NCBI GenBank assembly: GCA_004298155.1
Contig: SCRD01000001.1
Location: 1 to 64,000 of the forward strand
From: Acidobacteriota bacterium
GTDB taxonomy: Bacteria > Acidobacteriota > Terriglobia > UBA7540
Direction: 5' to 3'
DNA length: 64,000 nucleotides
This document shows positions 26,140 to 33,534 of this stretch, piece after piece (the stretch's first letter is position 1; each line of letters opens with the position of its first letter). Made by a program: the position numbers and the translations under genes. The notes beneath the pieces were generated by a model that saw only the letters and a list, made by a program, of their open reading frames with translations, ran no database searches and was not told the DNA's origin.

Positions 26140-27594
26140 TCAGGTAAATGACTGCATGCCGCGCGCTGCCGTACCGCCCACCGTCAGCCGGCTGATCTTG
26201 ATGGTAGGGATGCCCACGCCCACCGGAACGCTCTGGCCGTCTTTGCCGCAGGTGCCGATGCCCGGATCAAGCGCGAGATCGTTACCGACGGCGGTGACGT
26301 TGGTCAGCACGGTTGGCCCGTCGCCGATCAGCGTCGCGCCCCGCACCGGCGCGGTGATTTTGCCATGTTCGATCAGATAAGCCTCAGAAGCCGAAAATAC
26401 AAACTTGCCGCTGGTGATGTCCACCTGGCCGCCGCCAAAGTGCAGCGCGAAGAGGCCGTGATCGACGGAGCGGACAATTTCCTCGGGATCGTCGTGCCCG
26501 GCCAGCATGTAAGTATTGGTCATGCGCGGCATGGGGATGTGCTCGTAGCTTTCGCGGCGGCCATTGCCGGTGCGCGTGGCCTTCATCTGGTCGGCGCTGA
26601 TTTTGTCCTGCAGGTAGCCGACGAGCGTGCCGTTCTCAATCAGCACGTTTTTGTGCGTGGGCTCGCCTTCGTCGTCCACGTTCAGCGAGCCGCGCCGCGA
26701 GGGAATCGTGCCGTCATCCACCACCGTGCACAGGTCGGAAGCCACTTTTTTTCCGATCCTGCCCGAAAAGGCCGAAATGCCTTTGCGGTTGAAATCGGCT
26801 TCGAGCCCGTGTCCCACGGCTTCGTGCAGCAGGATCCCCGGCCAGCCGGGACCCAGCACCACCTGCATTTCGCCCGCCGGCGCCTCCCGGGCGTCAAGCT
26901 GGACAATCGCCTGCCGCGAGGCTTCCCGGGCAAATTTTTCGGGACTGCTCTCCCCCGCAAAAAATTCCAGGCCCACGCGCCCGCCGCCGCCGTAGGTGCC
27001 GGAGCGCAGCTTGTCATTTTCCTGAGCAATCACGTAAACGCTCAACCGCACCAGCGGCTGGAAGTCGGTCACAACGCGGCCGTCGGACCCCGCCAGCAGC
27101 ACGTGGCGGCTCTGGTCGGCATAGTTCACTCGCACCTGAGTAATTCTGGGATCGTAAGCCCGCGCGGCCACGTCGGCGCGCCGCACCAGTGCCAAACGGT
27201 CTGTCAAGGCGCGGTCGGTCGCGGCCGCTACAACGGGATAGAGGTCGCTTGCCGGCTGCCGCGTTGTAAGACCTACGGTTGAAACGCTGGAGGGGCCGCT
27301 GGCGATTCTCGCCGCCGTGCGGGCTGCCTTCAGGATTTTTTCCGGCGCCAGGTCGTCGGTGTAGGCGTAACCGGTCTGCTCACCGGCCAGGACGCGCACG
27401 CCGCAACCCACGGAAATGCCTTCCAGCGCCGACTTCACCAGCGACTCGTCCACCGCCAGGGAAGTGGACGTGGTGTGCTCAAAATAGAGGTCCGCGTAGT
27501 CGCCGCCGTCGGAAAGCGCTTCCGCAAGGTAGCGCTCCAGGTCCGACTGGGACAGTCCGTAACGGTCGAAGAAAAATCGGTCATTCGCTGCCAT
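26140..27594 (-). CDS. tldD: Metalloprotease TldD
   Basis: A 484-residue zinc peptidase subunit. The zinc motif HEAVGH starts at H257 (H257, E258, H262), and the likely cysteine ligand lies in GTCGKDGQSVPVG near the C-terminus. The N-terminal part (YFEHTTSTSLAVDESLVKS) and the remaining barrel fit TldD. It works with TldE as a narrow-channel protease for unfolded peptides. No RiPP precursor or toxin gene was seen next to it, so the local context gives no substrate. Confidence 0.95.
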   Translation of the reverse strand: MAANDRFFFDRYGLSQSDLERYLAEALSDGGDYADLYFEHTTSTSLAVDESLVKSALEGISVGCGVRVLAGEQTGYAYTDDLAPEKILKAARTAARIASGPSSVSTVGLTTRQPASDLYPVVAAATDRALTDRLALVRRADVAARAYDPRITQVRVNYADQSRHVLLAGSDGRVVTDFQPLVRLSVYVIAQENDKLRSGTYGGGGRVGLEFFAGESSPEKFAREASRQAIVQLDAREAPAGEMQVVLGPGWPGILLHEAVGHGLEADFNRKGISAFSGRIGKKVASDLCTVVDDGTIPSRRGSLNVDDEGEPTHKNVLIENGTLVGYLQDKISADQMKATRTGNGRRESYEHIPMPRMTNTYMLAGHDDPEEIVRSVDHGLFALHFGGGQVDITSGKFVFSASEAYLIEHGKITAPVRGATLIGDGPTVLTNVTAVGNDLALDPGIGTCGKDGQSVPVGVGIPTIKISRLTVGGTAARGMQSFT

Positions 27595-27979
27595 AAATTA
27601 TGCCTGTCGGGTGGATCGCTTGGGACTGCTGAAAAGGTCCCGCAACACGTCATCCTGAGTGAAACGAAGTATCTGCTTTGTTGGCTTTTCAGGAGGAAAC
27701 GGCAGACGCTTTACTACCGCCAGCACGACGCTCGGCCATATTCAGCAGTCTTCTTAACGTGGAAGCGTGTCTCGCCGTGGGCCAACCACCTGAATGTTCA
27801 ACGTAACACACGCGCATGGGGGTGTCAATTTGGGGGGCCACCGCCCGGTGGCAAATTGTACCCTTGGGGCAGGGCATCACAGGCGGTCGGTTTGGGTAAG
27901 GAGTCGGAGCTCCGCGTCACATCGGGACTTGATGTTGCGCGCGGCACACCGACCCGCCACAACCGAGCAGCGCCACAGA
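27595..27979. other. Gene-free stretch downstream of the Ntn-hydrolase cassette
   Basis: These 385 bases between two minus-strand units hold no supportable gene. The end near tldD has a fragment of the family D repeat at 27649-27677. Confidence 0.45.
27649..27677 (+). repeat. Partial family D repeat
   Basis: GTCATCCTGAGTGAAACGAAG matches the left end of the element at 14773-14869. The matching right end is not evident. Confidence 0.45.
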
Positions 27980-28150
27980 TTATTTCAGCCAGTAGCCGAT
28001 AATTAATCCGATGATTCCGAAGGCCCACTTTATCGTGGCGTCCGGATAGTTGGTATCGAGGATGACGAAGAGTGAAGCTGAACACAAAATAACGGACAGA
28101 GCGACGCGGACAAGGAAATAATATCGCTCCCGTTGCGTGAATTCCGACAT
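27980..28150 (-). CDS. Small membrane protein, 56 residues
   Basis: The frame starts MSEFTQRERYYFLVRVALS and ends LIIGYWLK. Two hydrophobic segments are visible, about 13-31 (VRVALSVILCSASLFVIL) and 41-55 (WAFGIIGLIIGYWL), joined by a short polar loop DTNYPDATIK. It begins 7 bases after the stop of the 77-residue gene at 28158, so the two are probably one operon with the Ntn hydrolase. The steady reading frame, hydrophobic pattern and tight spacing support it despite its size; the ribosome-binding site is weak. Function unknown; a membrane anchor or partner for the upstream proteins is inferred. Confidence 0.6.
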   Translation of the reverse strand: MSEFTQRERYYFLVRVALSVILCSASLFVILDTNYPDATIKWAFGIIGLIIGYWLK

Positions 28151-28157
28151 TCCGGGT

Positions 28158-28391
28158 TTACCTGTTCTTGACCCAATCCTTCACAATCGCGACAGCTTCT
28201 TTCAAGTGTGTCCCAAACGCCCGGTCCGCCTGCCACCCTTCGGACGGGATGTACACTATCGAGCTTATAGGCTCGCCGCCTGTCACGAAGATTACTGGGT
28301 CGGCGCTGGGCATGGTGTCGAAAAGACTCATACCATCTGGCGTAGCCTGAAAGGAATTGCGAGCGTAAAACTTGGTGGTTTGCTCTCCCAT
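28158..28391 (-). CDS. Small protein of the Ntn-hydrolase cassette, unknown function
   Basis: A 77-residue soluble protein with no signal peptide and no family I recognise. It has a compact mixed composition (NSFQATPDGMSLFDTMPSAD, VIFVTGGEPISSIVYIPSEG) and an amphipathic C-terminal helix (THLKEAVAIVKDWVKNR). A GGAGG site 7 bases upstream supports the ATG. It lies 19 bases after the Ntn-hydrolase stop and 7 before the small membrane gene. Its constant company suggests it is a partner, substrate or modulator of the hydrolase, but that is inference from position. Confidence 0.65.
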   Translation of the reverse strand: MGEQTTKFYARNSFQATPDGMSLFDTMPSADPVIFVTGGEPISSIVYIPSEGWQADRAFGTHLKEAVAIVKDWVKNR

Positions 28392-28410
28392 TTAAGACCT
28401 CCAAACTTCA

Positions 28411-29235
28411 TCAAACGGAATATTCCGGCTTTTTTATCCACTGAAAGCCGTTCTCTCTTGTTATTAGTGCCATCAACAACGGGCCGCCACAAGAAGGGGA
28501 ACCAACTTCGTAAGTGGCCTCTCCGATAGTCGTTTCGAGTATAAATTTGCAGAACCCGATTGCGTCGTTTACGGGCATACCATCGAAAATAATCGGGACG
28601 ACCAATCTAGCCCCCACCATCTGAAGTATGTTTTTTACCTCCTCGACCTTCTCGGGTGAGAGGCCGATTTGCGGAAGTAGATCGGGAATCCTTGGATCAA
28701 GCCCGAAGTAGAGGCGGGTGAAAGGGACCGCCACTCCACGCCAACTTGCGCCAAATACATTGTCTGGCCTGGCCTGCCTGGGCTCATTGTCGTTAGGGAG
28801 GGTAAATTCCCACTCCGATCCAGAGCCTGGTTCCTGGCCACGCGTGTACCCCGCTAAATAAAAACCTAGGGGAGGTGGCTGCACCGGTTGAGCCGCACCC
28901 GCAGGCGTTGGCTGAGGGCGATTATTAAAGCGCGGCAGCACGAACTCCAGAAGGCGTTTCGCGATCTGCTGGACTGTAAAATTCTGCTCCTGCTCGGCTC
29001 GTATCTGCGCACTGAATTGGCTTACGATACTCTCAATAGAGCTGTTGCCAATATTACCTAGGCCGTACGTTAGAACGCCCACTGGAAGGTCAGCCAACTG
29101 GAATAGCTTCCTCGCGTTTGAATACGCCTTTACGACGCCCGCAACTCCTGGTCCGATTTGGGCAGTGATCTGCGTCATGCTCTCAGCACCCATCACGATG
29201 CCATCGTAAACTTTGACACACGCAACTATCGACAC
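28411..29235 (-). CDS. Proteasome-superfamily Ntn hydrolase-like protein
   Basis: A 274-residue protein whose start, MSIVACVKVYDGIVMGAESM, follows the first strands of 20S proteasome beta subunits. With that alignment Ser2 takes the place of the nucleophile Thr1, E18 that of Asp/Glu17, and K43 in ARKLFQL that of Lys33 (Thermoplasma beta reads KKLFQI). Later parts LGFYLAGYTRG and SCGGPLLMALITRENGF also echo the fold. There is a proline-rich insert near 107-122. The start is GTG without a clear ribosome-binding site. It differs from HslV and from Anbu, both of which use Thr. Loss of the initiator Met would expose Ser2. It heads a three-gene cassette next to tRNA-Cys. Hydrolase activity is inferred. 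Confidence 0.6.
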   Translation of the reverse strand: MSIVACVKVYDGIVMGAESMTQITAQIGPGVAGVVKAYSNARKLFQLADLPVGVLTYGLGNIGNSSIESIVSQFSAQIRAEQEQNFTVQQIAKRLLEFVLPRFNNRPQPTPAGAAQPVQPPPLGFYLAGYTRGQEPGSGSEWEFTLPNDNEPRQARPDNVFGASWRGVAVPFTRLYFGLDPRIPDLLPQIGLSPEKVEEVKNILQMVGARLVVPIIFDGMPVNDAIGFCKFILETTIGEATYEVGSPSCGGPLLMALITRENGFQWIKKPEYSV

Positions 29236-29399: not shown

Positions 29400-29421
29400 T
29401 TACCTCTCTTATATGAGGTAA
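29400..29421 (-). promoter_or_regulatory. Inverted repeat upstream of the Ntn-hydrolase cassette
   Basis: Perfect 7-base arms TTACCTC and GAGGTAA flank an 8-base AT-rich centre, 165 bases upstream of the hydrolase start, in an AT-rich patch of otherwise GC-rich DNA. It could be a repressor operator. The rest of the 29236-29547 gap (312 bases) holds nothing else I can name. Confidence 0.4.
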
Positions 29422-29547
29422 CTATATTGTAAACTGTATGTGGTGCCGTGTCAATACAAATCGGCCACTCACATGGCTTTCCCCCCTTCGCCATGGACTC
29501 GGATCTCTTGCATGACTGCACGAGGCCTGACAGTCCCGTGGCGATGC

Positions 29548-29621
29548 TGGAGGCGCGGGGCGGAATCGAACCGCCGATCAAGGTTTTGCAGACCTTTGCC
29601 TTACCACTTGGCGACCGCGCC
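29548..29621 (-). tRNA. tRNA-Cys (GCA)
   Basis: On the minus strand a full cloverleaf is visible: acceptor GGCGCGG/CCGCGCC, D stem GCC/GGC, anticodon stem AAGGT/ACCTT with loop CTGCAAA (anticodon GCA), T stem GGCGG/CCGCC with TTCGAAT, and encoded CCA. It lies 14 bases after the TonB-receptor stop. Confidence 0.97.
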
Positions 29622-29635
29622 ACCTTTCCCACACG

Positions 29636-32600
29636 CTACCACGACAGCTTCAACGCCAGTTGAATCTGCCGCGAACTGGTTGACGTTGAAGTGATCACTC
29701 CGGCGGTTGGCGAAGGTTCGCCCGTTGCCGCCGTGAATACAACCGGATTCGGCGTATTCAGGTTCGTGTGGTTCAACACATTGAAAAAGTCAGCCCGGAA
29801 CTGCACTTCGCGCCTCTCGCCAAGGGAAAACTTCTTCGCCAGGGAGACGTCAGCCTCCACCAGGCCGGGTCCGGTCAAAACATTTCGGCCGGCGTTGCCG
29901 TAGGTGCCGGGCAAGGGCTGGATGAAGGCGCCGGGCAAAAAATAACGGCTGGCGCTGCCCAATATCACAGGCCTCGTGAAACTGGGGTTCCAGGACGGCC
30001 GCACCGGGTTCCGCGTGTCGCCATCGTTCGCCGGGTTGTAAGACAACTGGGGCGTGAATGGGATGCCCGACTGCAATGCTGCGATTCCGCTGATCCGCCA
30101 GTTGCTGATAAGCCGCTGCACCCATACGCCGTCTTGTGCGGGGCGCCCGAAGGGAAGCTCCCAGTTGGCGTTAACGACCGCGGAATGCCGCACATCGAAA
30201 GATGCGCGGCCGTAATCCGAAGCCGGATGGAGCGGATTGCTGACGTACGACGGCGAGTTCGTGGCGAGGGTAGTATTCAAGGTATCTCCGTTGTCGAGGG
30301 CCTTGGCAAACGTATAAACGCCCCGTAATTGCACTCCGCGGTTGAAGCGCCGGCTGAAATCCACTTCCAAAGCGTTATACGAGCTGACGCCTTGGGAGAA
30401 CCAGGTGGTTGTAGCGCCCACTTCCGGATTGGCAAGGGGCGCGCCGGGCGGGTTGTACCAGGTTCCGGCCAGGTAATTTGCGGGGCAGGGCGACGCGGGG
30501 CAAATCGTGGGCACAGGGACGTTGGCATCCACGCTGAGCAGTTCGTGGTAGGCGTGCGATCCGACATAGCCCACGCTCAGGGAAGTATTCTGCGAGAGTT
30601 GTTGCTCGACCTTCAACGTGTATGCCTCTACCGTTGGTGTCTCGACGCTCGGCTGGATGCCGCTCGGCAGGAGCCTGGAATTTGAAGGCAGCGGCTGGCC
30701 GGGGACAATGTGAATGCTGGAAATCGGGGCGTCCTTGATTACCAGAGATTGATTGAAAGGTCCGAGATTATCCAGGCGGTAGCTGATATTGTCGAGCAGC
30801 GAGTAGTAAAGGCCAAAACCTGCGCGGATGGCAGTTCTTTTAGACGCCAAAGGTGACCAGGCAATTCCAACGCGCGGCGCGGGAAGAAATTTTGCGTTAT
30901 TGACGGTGAGGGCGGAGCGGCCCACGGTGGGTCGCGTGTCGATAACACCGTCCGAATTGAAATGGTAGTTGGAGGCGCGGCCGTGCGCCTCATTCCAGCC
31001 GTTTGTGGACTCGGCCCGGAACCCGAACCGCAGTTCTAGCGAGGGCCTGGGTTTCAGCACGTCTTCCGCGTATAAAGCGCCCTCGAGCGAACGCCACCCC
31101 AGCAGCGTTGACGACGGTATGACCGTAAACGCTGAGACTGTGCCGTCAAGGAAAGTCTGGAGATTTGAGAATGTCGCCTGGCCAAACTGGTTCTGCGCCA
31201 GGTTGTCGTTCACCTGGATCCGCTGCGTCCAGGCGCCGATTTTGAGAAGGTGAATGCCATGGGTGATGGCGACCTGGTCATCCAGTGTAAACAGGTTCCG
31301 GACAGCCGTGAGGTTGCTGCTCCCGCTGGCGCCGGCAGCGGCGATTTGCGTTGCCGCGTTATTCGCCGTGCTGCCGCCGATCACCACTGCGCCCATCGGC
31401 CGGCCCTCCACAAATCCCGGCAGGCTGGCCAGCGACCGTCCGGTGTAATAATACGCGCCGCGGGAAAAGCCGAACGTCACCCGGTTCAGAACGTTGGGTG
31501 AAAACAGGTGCGTTTCGCTCAGGCTGGCCACCTGCTCCCGGAGTGTGATGTCAACAAAGCTCAGCGGATTTGTCGTGGGCGTTTTGGCCGCACTGTCATC
31601 AGCGGTGTAAACCGCCGTAAGCGAATCCTTGTCTGTAAACGTCTGGTCGAGCCTGGCGGTCCCGAAATCTTCGCGGATGGCCTGCAATGGATTGCTGAAT
31701 GCCTGCGCGATGCCGCTGGGCCTGCCCGCGGAGGTCAACAATTCCGGCCCGTTGGCCAGCGGCCACAAGGCAAGGAACGGTTGGACGCTCGGGACGGCGC
31801 TTGCCCGCGAGGCGCTATCCGGAACAAACGCCACGTTGCTGAGCCGAAGGTGCTGGCGATAGCCTTCATAGTTTCCGAACAGGAAAGTACGGTCCTTTCT
31901 GATTGGCCCTCCCAGTGATCCGCCGAAAACGTTTCGCTGGAATTGCGGAACGCTTCCCCTGTCAAAGAAATTCCTTGTGTCCAGAGCGCTGTTACGGAGG
32001 AACTCATAGGCATTGCCGTGCACCTGGTTGGTGCCGGATTCCGTCACAATATTGATCTGGGCGCCTGGCCGTTTGCCGTATTCAGCTCCATAGTCGTCTT
32101 TAACCACAGCAAACTCGCGCACCGCGTCGACCCCGAGCAGTTGGCCGCTGGCCCCGCCCGGCGTGTTGTTGATTTCAGATGCGCTGGTAAACTCGACACC
32201 ATTCAGCAGGTAGAGGTTCTCCTGCGGCCGCCGGCCTGACGCGGAGAACATATTGCCGATAACTGAATTGTTCGTCCCAATGCCGCCGGCGCGCTGCGAT
32301 GTGTAATTCACGACGCCGGGATTAAGGGTGATCAGTTGATCATAGCTGCGGCCGTTCAATGGCAACTCCTTCACCAGTTGTCTGCTGACAACCCCGGAGC
32401 TATCGGCCGTAGTGAGCTGCGCTTCCGCGGGATATTCCTGGACATCAACGGTCTGGTAACCGGCGGCGATGGGCAACTTTAGATTAACCTCCGCGCGTTG
32501 TCCCACGGCGAGTGAAAGCCTGCGCGTTGCACGGTCAAATCCTCGCTTGCTTGCCGTAACTTCATAGGTCCCTGCAGGGAGCAAAGGGGCTTCATACCGG

Positions 32601-32791
32601 CCGGCATCGTTGCTGAGGATGCTTCGCCTGGCGCCCGTTTCCGAATTCAGGATGGTGACGCCGGCGTCCGGCACCACGCCTCCCGTTGTATCTGTCACTA
32701 CGCCGGCGATCGTGGCATCGCTTTGGGCCCAGGCAACAGGCGCCGCTGTGAACAGGACCACTGCCACCAAAACCGGCATCAGCCGTCTCAT
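29636..32791 (-). CDS. TonB-dependent receptor, Oar-like, with carboxypeptidase-regulatory domain
   Basis: A 1051-residue outer-membrane protein. Residues 1-22 form a signal peptide. An Ig-like carboxypeptidase-regulatory domain (ATIAGVVTDTTGGVVPDAGV) covers about 25-110, then a plug domain (VSRQLVKELPLNGRSYDQL) and a large beta-barrel ending in LALKLSW, an aromatic C-terminus for BAM insertion. Such receptors are strongly expanded in Acidobacteriota and usually import oligosaccharides, peptides or other large ligands. No substrate gene or TonB system is adjacent. The tRNA-Cys gene follows closely. A regulator is not seen. Confidence 0.93.
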   Translation of the reverse strand: MRRLMPVLVAVVLFTAAPVAWAQSDATIAGVVTDTTGGVVPDAGVTILNSETGARRSILSNDAGRYEAPLLPAGTYEVTASKRGFDRATRRLSLAVGQRAEVNLKLPIAAGYQTVDVQEYPAEAQLTTADSSGVVSRQLVKELPLNGRSYDQLITLNPGVVNYTSQRAGGIGTNNSVIGNMFSASGRRPQENLYLLNGVEFTSASEINNTPGGASGQLLGVDAVREFAVVKDDYGAEYGKRPGAQINIVTESGTNQVHGNAYEFLRNSALDTRNFFDRGSVPQFQRNVFGGSLGGPIRKDRTFLFGNYEGYRQHLRLSNVAFVPDSASRASAVPSVQPFLALWPLANGPELLTSAGRPSGIAQAFSNPLQAIREDFGTARLDQTFTDKDSLTAVYTADDSAAKTPTTNPLSFVDITLREQVASLSETHLFSPNVLNRVTFGFSRGAYYYTGRSLASLPGFVEGRPMGAVVIGGSTANNAATQIAAAGASGSSNLTAVRNLFTLDDQVAITHGIHLLKIGAWTQRIQVNDNLAQNQFGQATFSNLQTFLDGTVSAFTVIPSSTLLGWRSLEGALYAEDVLKPRPSLELRFGFRAESTNGWNEAHGRASNYHFNSDGVIDTRPTVGRSALTVNNAKFLPAPRVGIAWSPLASKRTAIRAGFGLYYSLLDNISYRLDNLGPFNQSLVIKDAPISSIHIVPGQPLPSNSRLLPSGIQPSVETPTVEAYTLKVEQQLSQNTSLSVGYVGSHAYHELLSVDANVPVPTICPASPCPANYLAGTWYNPPGAPLANPEVGATTTWFSQGVSSYNALEVDFSRRFNRGVQLRGVYTFAKALDNGDTLNTTLATNSPSYVSNPLHPASDYGRASFDVRHSAVVNANWELPFGRPAQDGVWVQRLISNWRISGIAALQSGIPFTPQLSYNPANDGDTRNPVRPSWNPSFTRPVILGSASRYFLPGAFIQPLPGTYGNAGRNVLTGPGLVEADVSLAKKFSLGERREVQFRADFFNVLNHTNLNTPNPVVFTAATGEPSPTAGVITSTSTSSRQIQLALKLSW

Positions 32792-33534
32792 CCTTTCTGT
32801 GCCTCCAAAGATTGCATGAATTGCCGTGAGTCATCTCCTTTTAAAAACGGGCGCCGGGCTGTTCATTGCCTTCGTCCCTGTTGTTTTGTCTGATTTCCTT
32901 CCGGCGGGTCAGGATGTTCAACTGCCGCCAGTAAATGGGCCGAGAGAGGAGAGGTCAACAACAGCGCAGGCGTGCCTGCTGGGAGGGCCGTGCCGGCGTG
33001 TGAATATCAAAATGACTCATCGCTCAGGTCTCGCGTTCAACCTGGAAGATTGTTTCGATCGGGTCTGATTGCTTGCTGTGCCGAGGTTGTTAAAAGTACA
33101 ACCTCTGATGTCAATGGGCGGATTTCATCAGCGACAACAACAGGAAGGAGCGACCCTGCGCACCGTGAGGTTCGCAAGGGCATAAGCGGAAATAATGTTC
33201 GTTCCCCGGAACATATTCTCCAACTTTACGTGATTTCTTTTGCCGCTGTCAAGCGAGACCGCCGAGTGTGAGCATCCAAATCGCGGCGCATCCGGCAACC
33301 ACAGGGCGCTGGCGATCATCTAAAAACCATATGAGGCAAATGACATACTGATGGACGTAGAAATTGCCTGGAAGCCGGGGCAAACGTTCGAGGCAGGGAT
33401 TACGTGGGGCTTTGTAAGTTCATGTAATCACAAAGGTTGGGCTGCTCGATTGTGATTAGTGATACAATCGGCAATTCGTTTGCTCGTAGCAATGTGTAAA
33501 TTGATCCAAAAACAACTAAATGAGGTGAAGGAAT
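32792..33534. other. Long intergenic region without recognised gene
   Basis: This 743-base region separates the receptor from a divergent small exported protein and probably holds promoters for both. Open frames at 32826-33068, 33128-33319 and 33352-33459 lack ribosome-binding sites and recognisable sequence. No repeat from the other families was found. Confidence 0.45.

Follow-up and report, generated by a model that had tools for sequence, protein, structure and literature searches.

A proteasome-like hydrolase gene in an Acidobacteriota genome and the probable association of its family with toxin-antitoxin-like genes

We analyzed a 64,000-nt stretch of the genome of an Acidobacteriota bacterium (GenBank assembly GCA_004298155.1, contig SCRD01000001.1, positions 1 to 64,000; hereafter the window), which carries a cassette of three genes on its minus strand. 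The first gene (28411-29235, GTG start) encodes a 274-residue proteasome-like N-terminal nucleophile (Ntn) hydrolase, with Ser2 as the predicted nucleophile after Met removal, accompanied by E18 and K43. It is followed after 19 nt by a gene for a 77-residue middle protein (28158-28391, ATG start), proposed here to be an antitoxin-like adaptor and substrate, and after a further 7 nt by a gene for a 56-residue membrane protein (27980-28150, ATG start), which occupies the slot where many relatives carry a toxin. The G+C content of the cassette is 52%, as against 58% for the window. An original prediction from the sequence of the window had read the three genes as a unit from their close spacing. 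The open reading frames (ORFs), their strand and the two gaps are as it described, and the unit is real, as the same three genes recur together at two other loci (L116 and L130). Hydrolases of this family very probably associate with toxin-antitoxin (TA)-like genes.

The proteasome-like hydrolase and its homologues

A search of 60 related genomes gave two homologues of the hydrolase; homologues were found in 14 of 396 genomes of a phylum sample (eight over nearly full length) and as matches in 19 of 399 genomes of a class sample, the window's own genome being counted in the latter two. Matches were also present in 6 of 376 Actinomycetota genomes, including the source genome, and in 9 of 398 Pseudomonadota genomes, one of which was the source of the query and the other eight of which held partial matches within frames of 407-462 amino acids (aa). 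A pattern scan of the genome collection gave at least 10 loci, and four scans of viral contigs gave 4, 2, 6 and 11 matches, on contigs partly shared between scans; tblastn searches of plasmids and phages with the window hydrolase gave no match. After removal of duplicates or entries from the same contig (L036, L045, L111, L131, L140, L142, L143), broken, split or partial copies (L033, L037, L119, L137) and divergent sequences scoring below about 160 bits against the family profile (L117, L118, L120-L122, L124-L129, whose neighbours lie outside the Pfam scan below), 39 distinct loci were retained. A sister group (L047-L052, L055-L058) was kept out of the 39, and the Pseudomonadota long-frame matches (L066-L073) and Actinomycetota matches beyond L123-L126 lie outside the analyzed set.

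In all 39 homologues the start codon (33 ATG, 5 GTG, 1 TTG) immediately precedes residue 2, where 20 homologues have Ser and 19 have Thr. At position 18, Asp is found in 34 and Glu in the other 5; S19, K43, R174 and D224 are invariant. Ser2, E18 and K43, singled out in the original prediction, are present in the window protein and correspond to Ser/Thr2, Asp/Glu18 and Lys43 in every homologue. The prediction had further expected homologues to keep both Ser2 and K43, and had treated the serine as a special feature. Lys43 is indeed kept throughout; with 20 Ser against 19 Thr at residue 2, "serine-type" is not distinctive, and a serine-type subclass was set aside, as the two residues alternate among homologues. 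In one study of the yeast proteasome (PMC4792962), the catalytic triad is Thr1, Lys33 and Asp17, and a Thr1Ser mutant stays active, with 40-45% lower activity on one substrate; Ser2 is therefore compatible with activity.

When used alone as query, the window hydrolase had no Pfam or NCBIfam match at E 10, and so none to the proteasome family PF00227, a single PADLOC match at E 0.079, and nothing significant among PDB sequences (best E 0.35). A 20-member family profile reached proteasome beta subunits (PDB hmmsearch, E 0.0039). Among the 20 members, six matched PF00227 weakly (best E 0.015), three matched an archaeal proteasome beta model (best E 0.0012), two matched the PHROG "peptidase HslV family" (best E 0.0022), and 19 matched PHROG 5990, a model of 427 positions and unknown function.

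The AlphaFold model of the window hydrolase (predicted local distance difference test score, pLDDT, 85; predicted template modelling score, pTM, 0.83) matched 20S proteasome subunits in a Foldseek search of the PDB, with a best E of 1.4e-8. VIA-align gave the highest fold similarity to Anbu (5nyw, Z 20.5, root-mean-square deviation 3.0 over 199 residues; 5lox, Z 20.4), tied with proteasome beta subunits at Z of about 20; identity to Anbu was 14-15% over the aligned part. The Anbu alignment starts at model residue 2, paired with chain residue 1. All 50 rows shown by VIA-align were Anbu or proteasome beta, and the absence of HslV from them excludes nothing. A viral fold search returned 10 proteins at E <=0.001 with 9-16% identity, the best being a phage "proteasome beta type-2 subunit" (E 2.6e-10). 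The proteasome-type fold of the original prediction is thus upheld, and by its modelled structure the 274-residue protein is a proteasome-fold Ntn hydrolase. A phage head-maturation protease was also considered and set aside, as relatives occur in bacterial genomes and beside toxins.

Many prokaryotic members of the proteasome superfamily have no known purpose. Fuchs, Alva and Lupas (2021) describe 22 new subfamilies of proteasome homologues, including PMI-1 to PMI-6, and report no genomic context suggesting a specific function (PMC8665760). Like the window hydrolase, those homologues combine a proteasome-like fold with Thr/Ser1, Asp17 and Lys33; likewise, a propeptide is absent outside proteasome beta and HslV, and some subfamilies are phage-borne. 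Extra helices at about residues 170-222 of our model may correspond to the H3/H4 insertion of PMI-2 to PMI-6. The family may therefore be one of the PMI groups, a likeness drawn from the published description rather than from PMI sequences. This type of hydrolase was already surveyed in 2021 without functional context; the TA context is new.

The window's genome also encodes another proteasome-like protein of 286 aa (L053 4047-4907, minus strand; G000:C23) with a PF00227 match at E 3.4e-8 and a long, charged C-terminus, possibly a coiled coil. At C6:159504 the genome has a separate PF00227 match, stronger than the weak matches of the hydrolase family.

Small proteins and third-slot genes next to the hydrolase

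At all 39 loci, the best-scoring next same-strand ORF after the hydrolase is small (44-135 aa) and starts between -56 and +26 nt from the hydrolase stop. Because short ORFs arise by chance and the script sought one, position alone says little; many of these ORFs are nevertheless credible, because relatives share similarity (L027 with L028; L042, L044 and L132; L046, L112 and L114).

Besides the window's third gene, 17 of those in relatives were picked by eye and scanned against Pfam. A toxin scored over the Pfam cut-off at 13 of the 39 loci: PemK/MazF at L038, L041 (truncated by the contig end), L042, L044 and L132; PIN at L039, L046, L112, L113 and L114; ParE at L026 and L133; and Fic/Doc at L034. 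A PIN domain under the cut-off at L115 (17.3 vs 23.6 bits) brings the count to 14. Third genes lacking a Pfam match encode 222 aa in L027 (6879-7547), 231 aa in L028 (5918-6613) and 143 aa in L040, and those of L027 and L028, standing in the toxin slot, are possibly a new toxin family. At three loci (the window, L116 and L130) the third gene encodes a membrane protein.

The 14 toxin frames open 117-345 nt past the hydrolase stop on the same strand. Profiles built from these toxins recovered those 14 alone at E 1e-3 in 343,584 flank bases; the self-matches hold by construction, and the informative part is the absence of matches elsewhere in the flanks. The background density of such toxins is low: 118 PIN matches were counted in 24.7 Mb (six of nine genomes examined) and 29 PemK matches, some of them fragments, in 32.2 Mb (six genomes), in genomes mostly chosen because they bear the cassette. 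On the labelled rows of the hydrolase tree, MazF and ParE require two changes each and so lie in two separate parts each, and PIN and the membrane-protein cassettes require one change each; ParE has two rows only, so shuffles are uninformative for it.

Two further observations concern the MazF loci. In L042 and L044, an extra small ORF behind the MazF gene resembles the start of the middle protein, without its tail. L119 (3800-5700, minus strand) holds a decayed-looking cassette in which, judged by eye, the hydrolase and a MazF-like gene are both broken and a small ORF accompanies them.

The sister homologues come from phages, plasmids and genomes. Eight of the 10 records (L047, L049-L051, L055-L058) have hydrolase frames of 392-440 aa followed by an ORF of 35-79 aa; L048 and L052 are shorter and lack a small ORF next to them. 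On a Rhizobium plasmid (NZ_CP149876.1, L055), the gene for a 413-aa sister homologue has a multiubiquitin gene, with a ThiF-type gene behind it, at a distance of about 1.5 kb, possibly by coincidence.

The C-terminal tails of the middle proteins were searched against antitoxins in three toxin classes (ParE, PIN and MazF) and could be tied to them in two. For PIN, a Nostocales plasmid record encodes a 92-aa antitoxin-like protein followed by a PIN-like protein, a two-gene PIN pair. Six PIN-cassette middle proteins were compared pairwise with the 92-aa protein: its C-terminal half matched five of them at E <=6e-4 (best 8e-10) and the remaining one at E 0.017, and its N-terminal half matched none. 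Against three cassette PINs, the plasmid PIN shows 42-46% identity. The small proteins of PIN cassettes thus bear what is, by similarity, an antitoxin-like tail. For ParE, the L026 middle protein matched positions 42-77 of 79 of a RelN antitoxin model at E 8e-4, under the cut-off (19.9 vs 70 bits), which weakly suggests an antitoxin-like tail in this one cassette; the L026 tail query also reached two Cereibacter plasmid records at E 0.09, both annotated as hypothetical. The tail in the MazF cassettes looks MazE-like by eye, and the search with it gave no tie to an antitoxin.

The tail of the window's 77-aa protein (28161-28223, minus strand) was aligned with kin tails in L116, L130, L136, L137 and an unrelated 313-aa protein of genome G040, and F, G, E and K residues are invariant across the six. 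Between L116 and L130, the 77-aa proteins match at E 9e-8, and the window's protein matches that of L130 at E 7e-5 and that of L116 at E 0.003 in pairwise comparison, mainly in the tail.

The 56-aa membrane protein has a strong hydrophobic stretch at residues 9-34 and a weaker one at 37-54 (Kyte-Doolittle, 15-residue window, threshold 1.5). The two membrane helices of the original prediction are therefore plausible; in both homologues (L116 and L130), the first stretch alone passes the threshold. The protein had no match in NCBIfam or PADLOC and only a sub-threshold Pfam match to ThrE (E 0.056). A homologue comes immediately behind the genes for the hydrolase and a 77-aa protein in L116 (genome G1478 of the same class; tblastn E 1e-10) and in L130 (E 1e-11), a contig from a viral collection with capsid- and portal-like genes upstream, as judged by eye. 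The three membrane proteins share 17 of 56 columns and 39-40% identity, and their hydrolases form one clade (support 98/86).

Searches for further copies found the membrane protein in four of 270 class genomes, the window's own counted and one match being weak and inside a 1048-aa frame; no phage record and no further viral contig matched. On an Acaryochloris plasmid, a homologue is contained in a 106-aa protein encoded close to a MoxR ATPase gene. In G040, the 313-aa protein carries this kind of tail at its C-terminus, and the gene behind it encodes a membrane-protein homologue without the usual last residues; searches of the related genomes and of the phylum sample found no hydrolase match in that genome. 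Because G040 pairs tail and membrane protein without the hydrolase, the membrane protein seems, from these sequences, to be partnered with the middle protein and not with the hydrolase. The original prediction of a membrane partner dedicated to the hydrolase therefore stands as to the co-occurrence of the three genes, and would need changing as to the partnership itself. By analogy with the toxin cassettes, tail and membrane protein would interact, the one in the antitoxin slot and the other in the toxin slot, although the copies without a partner speak against this, and the window's membrane protein would have an effector role.

A proposed mechanism and its alternatives

We propose that the cassette is a mobile TA-like module with its own proteasome-like hydrolase acting on an antitoxin-like protein, and assign this full mechanism a probability of about 0.53. 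The Ntn hydrolase, lacking a propeptide, would be activated by Met removal, with Ser2 then serving as nucleophile. The second gene would encode a small bipartite protein whose N-terminal part goes with the hydrolase and whose C-terminal tail binds and silences the product of the third gene, an effector that would be MazF, PIN, ParE or Fic/Doc in relatives and the membrane protein in the window. The middle protein, probably flexible, could reach the active site without an unfolding ATPase, and its cleavage or degradation by the hydrolase would free the effector. The antitoxin would thus be kept unstable, or destroyed on a signal, by a built-in protease instead of host Lon or Clp. Gene order, active-site residues, predicted fold, the toxins of relatives and the tails (those of PIN cassettes and, as a weak match, that of one ParE cassette) can be read from the sequences; catalysis, binding, cleavage and toxicity are what we infer from them.

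The relatives resemble type II TA systems (mazEF, vapBC, parDE/relBE, phd-doc) in the Pfam families of their toxins, in the small protein encoded ahead of the toxin, in genes that almost touch and, for the PIN cassettes and one ParE cassette, in antitoxin-like tails. Unlike in those systems, the first gene here encodes a proteasome-like hydrolase, and unlike a stand-alone PIN antitoxin, the middle protein has an N-terminal half without a match to it. A known toxin after the small gene, which marks type II TA, is found over the Pfam cut-off in 13 of 39 relatives; the window's own 56-aa protein has no match over any cut-off, and its cassette is therefore described as working like type II TA, not as a member. 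In toxin-antitoxin-chaperone (TAC) modules, a third gene controls the fate of the antitoxin; in the present cassettes a predicted hydrolase takes the place of the chaperone. We know of no toxin neighbours of Anbu, and a literature search pairing Anbu with antitoxin found no paper; nor did word searches find an open-licence paper joining proteasome, Ntn or Anbu with toxin-antitoxin, conflict or gene neighbourhood. With Panacea antitoxins (PMC8832971), one antitoxin class meets many toxins; here, by contrast, the middle proteins vary with the toxin and share no single domain.

More tentatively, at somewhat less than even odds, these cassettes may form a new class of TA module, with its own proteasome-type protease and a modular antitoxin client that has been combined with toxins of at least four unrelated families and with a new membrane effector, on phages and chromosomes. 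The antitoxin of such a class would consist of a protease-binding half and an exchangeable toxin-binding tail. If true, an unexplained proteasome homologue would for the first time have a functional role. The toxin link, repeated in different regions of the tree, gives a testable job to one branch of the superfamily. If the hydrolase controls the antitoxin, the modules would be independent of host Lon and Clp and could work more easily in very different hosts and on phages, and proteasome-type chemistry would be serving as a switch.

Several results weigh against the proposed mechanism. Equivalents of proteasome Ser129 and Asp166 are not evident by eye in the hydrolase. At 19 of the 39 loci, including L138, L139 and L141 with less than 900 nt of downstream sequence, no third gene was recognized. 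The next ORFs of the 19 were judged by eye and with toxin profiles rather than Pfam, so either further toxins could be missed or a toxin is optional. Antitoxin models matched none of the other seven of eight middle proteins scanned; the PIN-tail query reached the single plasmid record with a weak tail match (E 0.9), and the MazF-type tails were tied to no antitoxin, their lone plasmid match (E 0.3) being a 162-aa protein with no MazF seen adjoining. By tblastn over the collected loci the window's 77-aa protein recovered only its own copies, and a search of the 60 related genomes gave no relative. The membrane protein has no evident partner on the Acaryochloris plasmid or in G1305, which is odd for a toxin; L136 and L137 (the latter cut short) have the tail with no membrane protein adjoining, and in L024 and L025, which are near relatives, a small ORF is present without a membrane-protein homologue.

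One alternative is that the hydrolase and the small protein are a complete two-gene unit, an enzyme with its inhibitor or dedicated substrate, to which toxins are add-ons that make a mobile pair addictive. Viral contigs L138, L139, L141 and L144-L147 show just a hydrolase and a 44-76-aa ORF, some with short flanks, and the sister group, with its small ORF in 8 of 10 records, has none of the four toxin kinds on the hydrolase strand in any of the 10, which also counts against our mechanism. Short ORFs can, however, occur by chance, and the antitoxin-like tail belongs to the small protein itself in PIN cassettes, as it does on a weak match in one ParE cassette; a single circuit therefore fits better than add-on toxins, and we regard the two-gene unit as unlikely. 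Less probable still is a hydrolase that leaves the middle protein uncut, as a scaffold holding and protecting the antitoxin or as a ligase like connectase, a proteasome homologue that is a protein ligase (PMC8665760). The catalysis proposed here is itself a prediction, which leaves space for such a role; conservation of nucleophile, acid and lysine in 39 of 39 homologues argues for some chemistry, with which ligation remains compatible.

A separate question concerns the window's third gene, whose product could, instead of an effector, be an anchor in the membrane or a small and common membrane module travelling with the tail. Copies in other contexts without an evident partner, and the lack of any database match beyond the sub-threshold ThrE, favour this reading; its retention in the third slot at three loci with 39-40% identity, and its position after the same kind of tail in G040 without a hydrolase, do not. 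We hold it to be a substantial possibility, though one we would bet against.

Setting of the cassette

A promoter-like site of sigma-70 type, TTGACA-17-TACAAT (29426-29454, minus strand, 11 of 12 matches), lies upstream of the hydrolase gene, in a region where three promoter-like sites were found against a mean of 1.4 in shuffles. Immediately downstream of it is a palindrome with 7-nt arms and an 8-nt loop (29400-29421, unstranded), a candidate operator. No palindrome of equal strength occurs within 320 nt upstream of L116 or L130, and autoregulation is therefore put forward as a possibility only. Repeats at the locus are just short two-copy matches and distant inverted ones.

The cassette is flanked on one side by a tRNA-Cys(gca) gene (29548-29621, minus strand) and on the other by a gene which we take, from its sequence, to be tldD-like. 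In genome G001, of the same genus, both flanks are kept (window 26144-27831 and 29540-33261), with about 2.9 kb of different sequence between them in place of the cassette. The site is therefore a variable slot bordered by the tRNA gene. In G001 the slot (L160 4022-6959) appears by eye to encode a 187-aa sigma-factor-like and a 289-aa antirepressor-like protein.
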